64,000 nt of DNA from a candidate division FCPU426 bacterium (GTDB lineage: Bacteria; Oederibacteriota; Muellerivitia; Muellerivitales; DAHXKG01), in NCBI GenBank assembly GCA_027366525.1, contig DAHXKG010000001.1, positions 220,075-284,074 of the forward strand, given 5' to 3'. The notes under the pieces were generated by a model. It was not told the origin of the DNA. It was given only the letters and a program-made list of their open reading frames with translations, and did not search any database. Below, in pieces: positions 8,384 through 42,665 of the stretch. How positions within the stretch are numbered: position 1 is the stretch's first letter; every line of letters starts with the position of its first letter. The translations under genes were made by a program, and so were the position numbers.

Positions 8384-8884
8384 TCATGAATCTGACGGCG
8401 GATTCAAATTGGTAAAGTCTGTTGGCGAGAGGTTTTGGAGAAATTTTTTAAACTCCGACATTTCATTTTTGTATTTTTCTTTATCAATAATAGTCGCATT
8501 GATGACGACTTTTTCGGCTACAAAAATAGGTGCCGCCATTCTCAGAGCTAACGCAATGGCATCAGAGGGTCTTGAATCCAACTCATATCGTTCCCCCGTT
8601 GCTGCATGATCCAAAATAATTTTGGAAAAAAAAGTAGTTTGATCCACATCATTAATAATGATCCGTTCTGCTTGAGATCCCAGCGTTTGAATAACATTTT
8701 TTAGCAAATCATGGGTCATCGGTCTTGGAAAAACTTGATCACTCAGTTGAATAAATATTGCCGTTGCTTCCGGAATTCCAATGGGTATTGGTAAATATCT
8801 CTTTTCTCCCTCATCTGTTAAAATAACAAACGGGGTTTTCAAATCCGGATCGACCGCAATGCCTCTGACTTTCATTTCAATCAT
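8384..8884 (-). CDS. Bifunctional nuclease (BFN/DUF151) domain protein, copy 1
   Basis: About 166 residues from the ATG at 8884. The BFN family signature is clear: MIEMKVRGIAVDP at the N-terminus, YLPIPIGIPEATAI, ERYELDSRPSDAIALALR and PIFVAEKVV. Members in plants and Thermotoga have been linked to nucleic-acid cleavage, though bacterial roles are poorly known. It lies 63 bases downstream of a closely related paralogue in the same direction, so the pair arose by tandem duplication. C-terminal residues are more divergent than the core. Confidence 0.88.
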   Translation of the reverse strand: MIEMKVRGIAVDPDLKTPFVILTDEGEKRYLPIPIGIPEATAIFIQLSDQVFPRPMTHDLLKNVIQTLGSQAERIIINDVDQTTFFSKIILDHAATGERYELDSRPSDAIALALRMAAPIFVAEKVVINATIIDKEKYKNEMSEFKKFLQNLSPTDFTNLNPPSDS

Positions 8885-8947
8885 AAAACATTCCATTTCT
8901 TGTTTAATCAAAATTTTAAACAAACTTATTTATTAAACTTCACTCCG

Positions 8948-9445
8948 TCATGGATCTTTTGGATTAGAATTAATAAAATCTGATAGCGAAATATGTTCCA
9001 AACGTTTTTTAAATTCCGACAACTCGGTTTTGCATCTTTTTTTATCAACAATGGTCGCTGTTACGACTACTTTTTCTGCTACTAAAATAGGCGAACACGT
9101 CCTTAGCGCCAACGCAATCGCATCCGAAGGCCTAGAATCTATTTCATATTTTTCTAACGTTTTTACATTTTCTAAAAAAATTTTAGAAAAAAAAGTATTT
9201 TTATCAATGTCGTTAATTACGATTCGAGTTACTTGCACTCCATGCACTTCTATTACCTGTTTTAAAAGATCATGTACCATAGGTCGAGGCAACTGCTGTT
9301 GACTCAGTTGAATAAAAATAGCCGTTGCTTCTGTTACCCCAATCCATATCGGAAGATATCGCTGCTCTTCTTCATCTGTTAAAACAACAGCTGGAGTTTG
9401 TAAAGTCGGATCAACCGCAATACCTCGAATTTTCATTTCAATCAT
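8948..9445 (-). CDS. Bifunctional nuclease (BFN/DUF151) domain protein, copy 2
   Basis: 165 residues from ATG 9445 (a TTG two codons earlier is possible). It has the same architecture as its neighbour: MIEMKIRGIAVDP, YLPIWIGVTEATAI, EKYEIDSRPSDAIALALR and PILVAEKVVV. The DSRPSDAIALALR segment is identical between the two copies, while the substrate-side loop YLPIWIGVTE differs from YLPIPIGIPE. This copy keeps the Trp more common in the family, so it is probably the ancestral-type gene. Confidence 0.88.
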   Translation of the reverse strand: MIEMKIRGIAVDPTLQTPAVVLTDEEEQRYLPIWIGVTEATAIFIQLSQQQLPRPMVHDLLKQVIEVHGVQVTRIVINDIDKNTFFSKIFLENVKTLEKYEIDSRPSDAIALALRTCSPILVAEKVVVTATIVDKKRCKTELSEFKKRLEHISLSDFINSNPKDP

Positions 9446-9566
9446 AATCAAACTCGCTTCTGCTGTAATTTTTTACCCCAATAATATTATAAGTTTCTTT
9501 CTCGAACCTTTCAATTGTCTGCATTCCTTGCAATATATAATATTTTTGAAGCATTCATCAAAAAAA

Positions 9567-38695: not shown

Positions 38696-38816
38696 TTAAA
38701 AAAGCATTGATTTTATGCATATCCCATATTTAAAAAAATTTCAAACAACTTTCTATTGAAAAAAAACGTATTCATATGAACAATGCTTATGAAGTTATCT
38801 TTTAGGAGGAATTTTT

Positions 38817-39188
38817 ATGAAAAAATTTTTGGGTCTCTTAAGTATATCGCTTTTTCTTGCTGTAAGTACCGCTACTGCTTCACCTATGTGTTATATGCAC
38901 TCATCGACAAAGATGAAATGTCACACTCAAGTATGTAAAAAATACAAACAATGTATGGATGGCACCCACTGTAATACCAAAATTTGTCAGAGCAAATTTA
39001 AATCAATGATGCAACCTCATTGCAATTTAAAAATGTGCAAAACCAATAAAAAATGCATGACGGGCAAACATTGTAATGATCCTAAAATGTGTCAAAACAG
39101 CAAAATGCAATCGTCTGATCATTCCAAAATGAGCAAGATGGGTCAAAAATGCATGATGGGTGAGCATTGTAACACCTCCTCCCATTAA
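38817..39188 (+). CDS. Secreted Cys/Met/His-rich peptide with CMxGxHCN repeats
   Basis: 123 residues, strong AGGAGG site before the ATG. The signal peptide ends at about Ala21 (TATA-S). The mature part contains 13 Cys (25, 35, 40, 46, 52, 57, 69, 74, 80, 86, 92, 112, 118) and about 15 Met, with three imperfect CMxGxHCN repeats near 46, 80 and 112. The repeats resemble metal-thiolate/thioether sites, suggesting copper or another soft metal is bound in the periplasm. I recognise no family. It precedes a thioredoxin (34 bases) and DsbD, which could keep the thiols reduced. Confidence 0.8.
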   Translation: MKKFLGLLSISLFLAVSTATASPMCYMHSSTKMKCHTQVCKKYKQCMDGTHCNTKICQSKFKSMMQPHCNLKMCKTNKKCMTGKHCNDPKMCQNSKMQSSDHSKMSKMGQKCMMGEHCNTSSH

Positions 39189-39221
39189 CTTTGAAATATT
39201 TTACTGAAAACGAGGATCTTT

Positions 39222-39665
39222 ATGAAACCATCCATTAAATTATTGCTTCTGATCACGGTGGTTGGAGTTTTTTTAACCACGGGATTATTAATTGCCAAGG
39301 GGACAAGTAAGCCCAATTCGTCTAAAACGATTTTATGGGAGACTAATCTGCCCAAAGCCTTTGCCGAGGCTCGTCACAATCACCAGCCTCTTTTACTCGA
39401 TTTTTATGCGACTTGGTGTGGCCCATGCCAAATGCTTAAAAAAATCACTTGGGGCAATGCCCAAGTGATTCGAGCCATGCACAAGTGGATTCCGGTTCAT
39501 CTGAATGTTGATTACCATCACCACCTAGATAACCAATATAAAGTGAGTGCTATTCCGATGGTTGTTTTTTTAAAACCCAATGGAAAAATCATCAACACTT
39601 CTGTTGGATTTGAATATCCAGGGACAATGTTGAAACTGATGAAGCAAGCTTATTCTCAGCGATAG
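39222..39665 (+). CDS. Periplasmic thioredoxin-like protein
   Basis: 147 residues. A membrane anchor or signal (about 5-26) leads to a thioredoxin fold with LLLDFYATWCGPCQML (Cys66 and Cys69), a cis-Pro loop in VSAIPMVVF and FLKPNGKIINTSVGF. The active site is the classical CGPC. It is 34 bases downstream of the Cys-rich peptide and 110 bases upstream of DsbD, which probably supplies its electrons. Confidence 0.92.
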   Translation: MKPSIKLLLLITVVGVFLTTGLLIAKGTSKPNSSKTILWETNLPKAFAEARHNHQPLLLDFYATWCGPCQMLKKITWGNAQVIRAMHKWIPVHLNVDYHHHLDNQYKVSAIPMVVFLKPNGKIINTSVGFEYPGTMLKLMKQAYSQR

Positions 39666-39774
39666 TATTTAAATTTTAATGCATTTTAAATTTTTATTAT
39701 TCAGTGATCCTAGGCTTAAACAAATTTAAACCTAGGGTCGCTGCTCTCTACCCCCCACTATAGAGGAACTGATT

Positions 39775-41610
39775 TTGAAAACTGTACTTAAAAAATTTTC
39801 TGCTTTATTCAATCATCCAGAATATAAACGACCGATCTTTGCATGGTTTTTTTATGGAATTCTCACTTCAATAATCACTGCAGAAATTTTCATGCCCAAA
39901 GCTGTTCAAGCCACTTTAATTTCTAGTGCTTCCGTTGTAAAAATAGAAGGCTATTCTTCACTAGCACCAGCCCATCCAGGTGAAATCATAACGCTCGGAT
40001 TACAATTAAATATTCTTTCTCCATGGCATATTGAGGCCTCTCATGGACTTCCTCACGGATTTTTCCCACTGAAAGTATCTCTTAAATCCATTCAGGGGGT
40101 TCAACAAATTTCTTCGCCGAGTTATCCCACTCCTAAATTGGATCACTTAAAAGGATTTCCAAAATCGATACCTGTTTATCAAGGCTCCATTCCCATCCTT
40201 GTTGCAGTTCATCTCCCTTCGCACTTGAATTCCCGCATTCTAAAAATTCCATTTCAGGTTCAAATTCAAGCATGCAACAATCAAGTATGCCTTCGTCCCT
40301 CCCGCTTATCCATAATCATCCCCATTCAAATAAATTCTAGCATCCAGCGGCCTGCGTTTCCCGCATCATTTCAAAAACTCCTAAATCAAGAATCTTTTCA
40401 AAAAACTAATATCATTGCAAAAATTCTTAAATCCAAAGGATGGATTCTAACTTTTGTGCTCATTTTTTTGGGTGGCTTAGCTTTAAATCTTACGCCTTGC
40501 GTTTACCCGATGATTCCTATTACCATTTCCTTTTTTGGATCAAGAAAAAATGATCGCGCAAGTATTATTTTATTACGGGCCATCGCTTACGTTGTTGGAA
40601 TTTCAGTTACTTATAGTCTATTAGGGATTACCGCGGCTCTAACCGGAAAAATTCTTGGTTCAACTCTTCAATCGCCCTTGATTCTTGTTGGCATCTCAAT
40701 TTTTTTAATCATTCTATCGTTATCCATGTTTGGAGTTTACGATATTCAAGCACCTGCTTGGTTACTGAACCGAATTTCCGGAGCCACTACTCAAGGTCTC
40801 CTCGGGGCATTCGGAATGGGCTTAGTATTTGGAGTGGTGGCCGCTCCATGTGTTGATCCATTTTCGATCGGATTATTGACTTATGTGGCTACGCAAGCCA
40901 ATCCTTGGCTTGGATTTTTTATGTTCTTTACTCTATCGCTCGGACTGGGATTTCCTTATATTTGGCTGGGTTTTTTTTCAACCTCGATCCAAAAACTACC
41001 TCGATCTGGATTATGGATGGTGTGGGTGAGAAAAGTTTTTGGTTTGATTCTTTTAGGAATGCCGTTTTATTTTTTAAACCCACTGCTTCCAAAACATTTT
41101 GATTCGATCGCCGTTCCGCTCTATTTGATGCTAGCTGGTTTACTTCTCGGCTGGTGGACACATCAAGACATTCAACCTTCCTTTAAGCGCTTTCAACGCA
41201 TTTTTGGAATTGGTCTTGTTATCCTTGGTATTGGATTATTAAAGTTCTGGCCGCACGCCTCACAATTACCCTTTCAGCCTTATAATCAATCGACTTTTCA
41301 AGAAGCCTATCAATCGCACCAATCTATTTTAATTGATTTTACAGCTAACTGGTGTCTCCCTTGTCGGGAAATTGAACTCCAAACATTTTCTAATCCTCAG
41401 ATTCATCAAGCACTTAAACATTGGACATTATTAAAGGCCGATTTAACTCAATATGCTTCGCCTGCAGTAAGCCGGTTGAGGAAACGTTTTCATGTTTTAG
41501 GTGTTCCAACGCTTTTATTTATCACACCCATGCATCCATTGCAACATCCAATTCGACATGTGGGATTTATTTCTGCAGCTCAACTGTTAAAAATTTTAAA
41601 AGCGTTTTAA
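39775..41610 (+). CDS. dsbD: Thiol:disulfide interchange protein DsbD
   Basis: 611 residues from a TTG start with an AGAGGA ribosome site 8 bases upstream. The N-terminal periplasmic domain (about 45-210) contains the CNNQVCL pair. The membrane domain (about 220-500) has eight helices with redox Cys242 (LNLTPCVYPM) and Cys359 (AAPCVDPF). The C-terminal thioredoxin domain has NWCLPCRE (Cys527/Cys530). It moves electrons from cytoplasmic thioredoxin to the periplasm; the two upstream genes are likely beneficiaries. Confidence 0.95.
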   Translation: MKTVLKKFSALFNHPEYKRPIFAWFFYGILTSIITAEIFMPKAVQATLISSASVVKIEGYSSLAPAHPGEIITLGLQLNILSPWHIEASHGLPHGFFPLKVSLKSIQGVQQISSPSYPTPKLDHLKGFPKSIPVYQGSIPILVAVHLPSHLNSRILKIPFQVQIQACNNQVCLRPSRLSIIIPIQINSSIQRPAFPASFQKLLNQESFQKTNIIAKILKSKGWILTFVLIFLGGLALNLTPCVYPMIPITISFFGSRKNDRASIILLRAIAYVVGISVTYSLLGITAALTGKILGSTLQSPLILVGISIFLIILSLSMFGVYDIQAPAWLLNRISGATTQGLLGAFGMGLVFGVVAAPCVDPFSIGLLTYVATQANPWLGFFMFFTLSLGLGFPYIWLGFFSTSIQKLPRSGLWMVWVRKVFGLILLGMPFYFLNPLLPKHFDSIAVPLYLMLAGLLLGWWTHQDIQPSFKRFQRIFGIGLVILGIGLLKFWPHASQLPFQPYNQSTFQEAYQSHQSILIDFTANWCLPCREIELQTFSNPQIHQALKHWTLLKADLTQYASPAVSRLRKRFHVLGVPTLLFITPMHPLQHPIRHVGFISAAQLLKILKAF

Positions 41611-41636
41611 TCCTTATTGAACTCCGAACTGCCCGC

Positions 41637-42665
41637 TTAGATAATTGAGGCCCCAATCGGCTGTGTGGAATGCCGAATAATTAACTCAGGTTTCAATATC
41701 GTTACGTTGCTTTCCAACACTTCTTGAGAACAAAGATGAAACATTTTTTGTGCAGCTACTTTTCCCATTTCATAACCTGAAAATGAAATCGTCGTTAAAG
41801 CCGGTTCATGATAATGGGTTTCTTCCATGTTATCAAATCCTATAATTGATATATGCTCAGGAACTTTTAATTCCGCTTCTCGAATAGCACGAATCGCCCC
41901 GATAGCCATAAGATCACTTGCGCATAAAATCGCCGTAGGATGGTGCGCATTGGCTAAGATTTGTTTCGCCGCCTCATAACCACCCTGCTCCTCAAAATTA
42001 CCATCGTCAATCCATTCATTACGAAGTTCAAGATTATTCATTGCCATTTTTTCTTGAAAAGCTTGAAAGCGTTCCAACGCATTTGTAGTATTCATCCGTC
42101 CATTAATCATGCCAATCTTCTGATGCCCTAATCGAAACAAATAATCCAAGGCCTTGTCAACACCACCTTTATTATCGACCCCTACAAACGGTAAATTATT
42201 ATGCCCAATAATTTTTCCATTAATTAGAACAAATGGAACTTGAGCCTCTGTTAGATCGCGAATAGAAGTATCCGTCGACCAGGCATTCAAAACAAACATG
42301 CCATCCACACTTCCATCGCCCAATAACATCCGATAGGAAATTTGTGAACGTACCATCTCACTTAGGGGATGAAGAAGAAGCCGATATTGATCTTCCGCTG
42401 CCACCTCCTCTAAGCCAGATAAAATAGAGGATAAAAAGGAACTTTTAAAAATTTTTGTTTGATGCGGCGCTATAACGCCCCAAATTTTGGAATATTTTTG
42501 ACGCAATCGTCGTGCATGAGCTTGAGGTTTATAATGCAGTTCTTGTATCGATTTTCGAACGCGTTGTTTGCACTCTTCACTCACCCATTTTTTATTATTC
42601 AAAACCCGTGAAACTGTACCGATTGTAACACCAGCATGTTTAGCAACATCTTTGATCGTTACCAT
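41637..42665 (-). CDS. LacI-family transcriptional regulator
   Basis: 342 residues. The N-terminal helix-turn-helix has TIKDVAKHAGVTIGTVSRVL and the hinge continues to about residue 60. The periplasmic-binding-protein-like sugar domain includes VDGMFVLNAW, VPFVLINGKI, AILCASDLMAIGAIRAIREA and SIIGFDNMEETHYHEPALTT. It is probably a sugar-responsive repressor. No operator or target was identified nearby; the flanking genes are not obvious sugar genes. Confidence 0.93.
   Translation of the reverse strand: MVTIKDVAKHAGVTIGTVSRVLNNKKWVSEECKQRVRKSIQELHYKPQAHARRLRQKYSKIWGVIAPHQTKIFKSSFLSSILSGLEEVAAEDQYRLLLHPLSEMVRSQISYRMLLGDGSVDGMFVLNAWSTDTSIRDLTEAQVPFVLINGKIIGHNNLPFVGVDNKGGVDKALDYLFRLGHQKIGMINGRMNTTNALERFQAFQEKMAMNNLELRNEWIDDGNFEEQGGYEAAKQILANAHHPTAILCASDLMAIGAIRAIREAELKVPEHISIIGFDNMEETHYHEPALTTISFSGYEMGKVAAQKMFHLCSQEVLESNVTILKPELIIRHSTQPIGASII

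Follow-up and report, generated by a model that had tools for sequence, protein, structure and literature searches.

Organization of the locus

Three genes on the forward strand of the window (the whole analysed stretch of DNA, 64,000 nucleotides in length) encode a Cys/Met/His/Lys-rich peptide (38817-39188), a signal-anchored thioredoxin (39222-39665) and a DsbD protein (39775..41610). The source genome (2.02 Mb, 97.5% complete) was the sole genome of its family in the comparison. The peptide open reading frame (123 aa) follows a strong AGGAGG ribosome-binding site and is real by all the sequence signs available. Its N-terminal Sec-type signal, assigned by inspection as MKKFLGLLSISLFLAVSTATA|S, comprises MKK, a hydrophobic core and the junction ATA|S. 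Assuming cleavage at about residue 22, the mature peptide has 101 residues, including 13 Cys, 14 Met, 8 His and 18 Lys, with Val, Ile, Phe and Leu represented once each and Tyr twice. As Cys makes up 1.1% of residues in the window genes, and the binomial chance of at least 13 Cys in 101 residues is ~1e-10, the Cys content of the peptide is not due to chance.

The peptide is built of units of about 17 residues with the form C-x5-C-M-x-G-x-H-C-N-xKx, as exemplified by CKTNKKCMTGKHCN. Exact copies of CMxGxHCN are located at residues 46, 80 and 112, and a degenerate fourth copy, SMMQPHCN, lies between the first and second of these. Among the three exact copies, Cys, Gly, His and Asn are encoded by different synonymous codons, so the motif is kept at the protein level, which suggests that selection on the protein maintained it. 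Steps between Cys residues are 5, 6, 10, 12 and 20, the smallest being 5; the spacings CxC, CxxC and CxxxC do not occur in the peptide sequence, and CxxxxC occurs three times (residues 35-40, 52-57 and 69-74). An AlphaFold model of the single peptide sequence was of low confidence (pLDDT 45.7) and uninformative on the fold. Upstream of the gene, a perfect inverted repeat (TTCATA/TATGAA, 6-11-6, 38771..38793, no strand assigned) overlaps the -10 element of a weak promoter-like site; it is a weakly supported, possible operator, picked post hoc and not counted as evidence.

The thioredoxin gene begins 33 bp after the peptide gene. Its product (147 aa) has an N-terminal membrane signal, exactly two Cys and the active site ATWCGPC, and matches the Pfam families Thioredoxin_7 (6e-14) and Thioredoxin (1e-13), the latter with 51.3 bits against a cut-off of 23.5 and the former likewise over its cut-off. 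No other secreted thioredoxin of the same type was found by search elsewhere in the genome. The closest plasmid-borne thioredoxins are ~30-40% identical to it, and the three plasmid neighbourhoods viewed contained nothing informative.

A further 109 bp separate the thioredoxin gene from that of DsbD, a protein of 611 aa with a TTG start that matches DsbD_TM (1e-47), DsbD_N (2e-4) and Thioredoxin_7 (4e-9). Its three domains contain three redox Cys pairs, located in CNNQVC of the N-terminal domain, in TPCVYP and APCVDP of the transmembrane domain and in WCLPC of the C-terminal thioredoxin domain, so that its six Cys, the only ones present, are all catalytic. The protein scored 275 bits with NCBIfam PRK00293 (curated cut-off 330) and 410 of 805 with the TsoB-like model. 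The gap preceding its gene folds at -27.4 kcal/mol, one of 200 shuffles being as stable, and contains a hairpin of 18 pairs (39702..39743, forward strand, z -4.06) with no U-tract after it. This hairpin is absent from the terminator listing and has no second copy in the window; it may represent an attenuator, a processing site or a regulator site, and its position makes a simple three-gene operon uncertain. Elsewhere in the window, two adjacent genes (8384-8923 and 8948-9451) encode proteins that closely resemble each other (MIEMK(V/I)RGIAVDP...) and seem to have arisen by tandem duplication.

Search for homologues of the peptide

Neither Pfam nor NCBIfam contained a family matching the peptide, the EB module, at an E-value of 0.84, being far under the cut-off. 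Likewise, no match was obtained among solved structures in the PDB, plasmids or viral contigs, and no homologue was detected in the genomes of the same order. A pattern search of genome contigs from 84,980 species, by a method that sees close relatives only, yielded 139 matches and 0 confirmed cases. Among 384 genomes sampled across bacteria the matches were all weak (E 0.002-0.01) and most had internal stops; upon inspection of the open reading frames none had the form of the peptide. A scan of 45 genomes of the phylum with the DNA pattern for CMxGxHC matched three places in the peptide gene and one unrelated place, a number not exceeding that of the backward control.

What the original prediction had observed of the peptide is borne out: the 13 Cys, the three CMxGxHCN copies, the roughly 100 mature residues and the lack of a described family. 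It is Met-rich as proposed, with 14 rather than about 15 Met. The search in other genomes that the prediction had called for upheld the status of an orphan and revealed no recurrence. The peptide is an orphan at the sensitivity used, a qualification that is required because alignment readily misses short sequences of biased composition; and as no homologue was found, the linkage of the genes is based on one genome.

DsbD and its neighbourhood in related genomes

DsbD is present as a single copy in the source genome, and eight of the nine genomes of the order, counting the source genome, have one DsbD each, the copies of the relatives within the order being 51-56% identical. Elsewhere in the phylum, outside the order, DsbD was not found at the threshold used. 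Within the order the gene belongs to a conserved block that also includes the genes for a GlgC-like protein, Mrp, LacI, a polysaccharide deacetylase, GlnK and AmtB. Where both genes were seen in relatives, DsbD shares the strand of LacI and lies downstream of it; only in the source genome is it reversed, convergent with LacI (region 39775-42665 of the window) and placed after the peptide and thioredoxin genes. The latter two are absent from the block in those relatives that have a readable stretch between Mrp and DsbD. The window thioredoxin also grouped with no thioredoxin of the relatives, including the secreted thioredoxins encoded beside SecD in the order, its placement in the tree being a long branch and unsure.

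As the peptide and thioredoxin genes are missing from the block in the relatives that could be read there while DsbD is kept, the two look like a lineage-specific pair added to an older, general DsbD. The link between the turn of DsbD and this pair comes from one genome. These observations modify the original prediction, which had described a periplasmic CGPC thioredoxin followed in the same direction by a full DsbD and had suggested a dedicated relay. The first part agrees with the WCGPC site, the two Cys of the thioredoxin and the three Cys pairs of DsbD; a dedicated DsbD, however, finds no support, the gene being the sole copy in the genome, retained in the same neighbourhood by relatives in which peptide and thioredoxin are lacking, and set apart from the thioredoxin gene by a stable hairpin.

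Several relatives carry, between Mrp and DsbD, the gene for a large iron permease of the EfeU/Ftr1 type with a long N-terminal extension (L045 10210-12165, L046 6024-8033 and L049 2307-4277). This is the site at which the peptide and thioredoxin genes are located in the source genome.

Copper and thiol genes elsewhere in the genome

CopA, CopZ and a CusA/CzcA-family RND pump are encoded on contig C31, and none of them adjoins the peptide; the pump gene is ~3.3 kb from those of CopA and CopZ (L096 7380-15936). Three tandem SCO1/SenC genes are found on the contig of the window (C11, 178.6-180.4 kb; L102 4108-5905), ~40 kb before the window start, with haem O/A synthase-like genes nearby by inspection. 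One of the three lacks the CxxxC copper motif, and most relatives have one SCO gene. VKOR was not found in the source genome. MNIO (PF05114) had no match in the source genome or beside the peptide, under conditions in which the controls matched, and an MNIO (MbnB/TglH/ChrH) gene is present in two relatives of the order (G001 and G008; L090 and L091). On contig C29 of the source genome, genes for an ArsR-type regulator with two Cys, a thioredoxin and a DUF2892-like small protein occur in a row (L074 1103-2004), possibly forming a thiol- or persulfide-responsive unit.

Proposed mechanism and alternative explanations

The explanation tentatively preferred here, which we regard as plausible if somewhat short of probable, is that of a periplasmic Cu(I)-sequestering peptide with thiols reduced by the adjacent thioredoxin, which is in turn fed by a general DsbD. 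Exported by Sec, the peptide would be an unstructured, multi-site periplasmic binder of soft metals, most likely Cu(I), in which the C, M and HC positions of each 17-residue repeat would supply Cys thiolate, Met thioether and His ligands. It would lower free copper and may keep copper in reserve for cuproenzymes. As thiols outside the cytoplasm would oxidise to disulfides, the membrane-anchored CGPC thioredoxin would reduce them, with electrons flowing from cytoplasmic thioredoxin to DsbD, to the anchored thioredoxin and then to the peptide. DsbD would serve as a general thiol-reducing hub brought into line with the pair and not as a dedicated part. We infer the metal, the reduction of the peptide, the electron route and the co-regulation of the genes from sequence and gene order.

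The odd number of Cys means that intramolecular disulfides cannot pair all 13, and this, together with the Cys, Met and His ligands and the lack of a hydrophobic core, argues against an all-disulfide fold and favours a peptide of the metal-thiolate or free-thiol kind. Met thioether ligands favour Cu(I) and Ag(I) over Zn, so that the abundance of Met, equal to that of Cys, would favour one of the former two metals. Reduction of the peptide by the thioredoxin with electrons from DsbD would be the simplest reading of the gene order. Counted for the mechanism were the upkeep of the motif despite synonymous codon changes, the 33-bp spacing, the lack of an orthologue of either peptide or thioredoxin at this place in the relatives, the turn of DsbD to follow the pair, the presence of copper genes in the genome and the Scs/CueP precedent. 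Counted against it were the lack of a homologue, and with it of any recurring linkage of the genes, the location of those copper genes elsewhere, the hairpin before DsbD and the fact that DsbD without the peptide is the rule in the order.

The thioredoxin and DsbD could also serve SCO and CuA sites, and in other bacteria TlpA-type thioredoxins are established reductants of Sco and CuA. The peptide may bind copper while the two redox proteins mainly serve other clients, such as the CxxxC motifs of SCO proteins and the CuA centre in cytochrome oxidase, the neighbourhood then reflecting a common copper theme and no direct reduction of the peptide. Besides the TlpA precedent, this explanation, which is rather unlikely in our estimate, fits a single-copy DsbD that the order retains in genomes lacking the peptide, the three tandem SCO genes on the same contig and the lack of a second secreted thioredoxin of this type; however, it leaves unexplained both the turn of DsbD and the position of the thioredoxin gene 33 bp behind that of the peptide.

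A directly coupled reducing thioredoxin would suit regeneration of a periplasmic thiol/thioether sink for oxidants such as HOCl, peroxide or polysulfide, in which metal binding would be incidental. The 13 Cys and 14 Met would be exposed on a chain without a hydrophobic core, yet the ordered repeats, with their fixed HC pair and Gly, suggest a ligand geometry, and the adjoining genes include none for a methionine sulfoxide reductase, so this explanation seems improbable. Slightly more improbable is a disulfide-linked, cationic secreted peptide with a structural or antimicrobial function, for which the thioredoxin and DsbD would provide an isomerase or proof-reader. DsbD commonly feeds disulfide isomerases, and the signal peptide, the many Cys and the 18 Lys are consistent with such a product, but the odd number of Cys, the 14 Met and the near lack of hydrophobic and aromatic residues are not, and the neighbourhood has no transporter or immunity gene. 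Finally, the Sec signal and three CxxxxC spacings match features listed for MNIO precursors, one group of which shares both (PMC12452194), and two relatives have an MNIO gene, but with none found either adjacent or in the 97.5% complete genome, a bufferin- or CxxxxC-kind RiPP precursor with Cys modified by MNIO to bind copper is very improbable.

Metal stores that rely on thiols are seldom found outside the cytoplasm, since free Cys becomes oxidised there. With its 13 Cys and 14 Met, the peptide, encoded beside a reducing thioredoxin and in line with DsbD, offers a natural test case for an exported, actively recharged store resembling a metallothionein, and the repeat is compact enough for synthesis and titration. 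The broader proposition, that this is a lineage-specific, exported and enzymatically recharged metallopeptide of Cys/Met repeats, unrelated to known metallothioneins and kept reduced in the periplasm by its own membrane-anchored thioredoxin fed by DsbD, seems doubtful at present. If the Cu(I)-sequestering mechanism is true, the peptide would join cytochrome c maturation, the isomerases and Scs/CueP on the list of DsbD clients.

Comparison with known systems

Periplasmic peptides of the SilE/PcoE type use Met and His and are not known to use Cys. The peptide may resemble them as an exported, disordered buffer of soft metals, but without Cys they need no reductase. The bacterial metallothioneins SmtA/BmtA and MymT, which are cytosolic and have CxC/CxxC clusters, are similarly short and Cys-rich with little hydrophobic core; however, the smallest Cys-Cys step of 5, the N-terminal signal and the lack of a Pfam match spoke against assignment of the peptide to them. 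Csp1, a bundle of four helices that is exported by Tat and has its Cys at helical spacing, shares with the peptide its export and many Cys, here putatively also for Cu(I). Unlike Csp1, the peptide has Cys-Cys steps of at least 5 throughout and many Met and His, and the lack of CxxxC spacing and of a Pfam match ruled against a Csp copper storage protein. Bufferins and other MNIO-modified RiPPs are likewise Sec-exported, short, Cys-rich and related to copper, as the peptide may be; it has the Sec signal of such Cys-rich precursors, but not the adjacent MNIO gene (PF05114), and its Cys are presumably unmodified.

By its likely working, the nearest known system is Scs/CueP. According to two reports on Salmonella, the DsbD-like ScsB keeps ScsC reduced, and both proteins bind Cu(I) and interact with CueP (PMC8900818, PMC13201067). 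There as here, a DsbD-like membrane reductase and a periplasmic thioredoxin-fold partner accompany a periplasmic Cys protein, which binds copper in Salmonella and putatively does so here. The components nevertheless differ, as ScsC is DsbA/DsbC-like and CueP a folded chaperone, whereas the present locus encodes an ordinary DsbD, a Cys/Met repeat peptide and a plain CGPC thioredoxin that matches Thioredoxin_7 and Thioredoxin and not DSBA or Thioredoxin_4, and hence is no ScsC-type partner. The peptide itself was ruled out as a CueP, having no Pfam or NCBIfam match. In view of this precedent, the novelty that the original prediction claimed for such a system was stated too strongly: the principle of a copper protein combined with a reducing system is not new, while the form of the peptide is.
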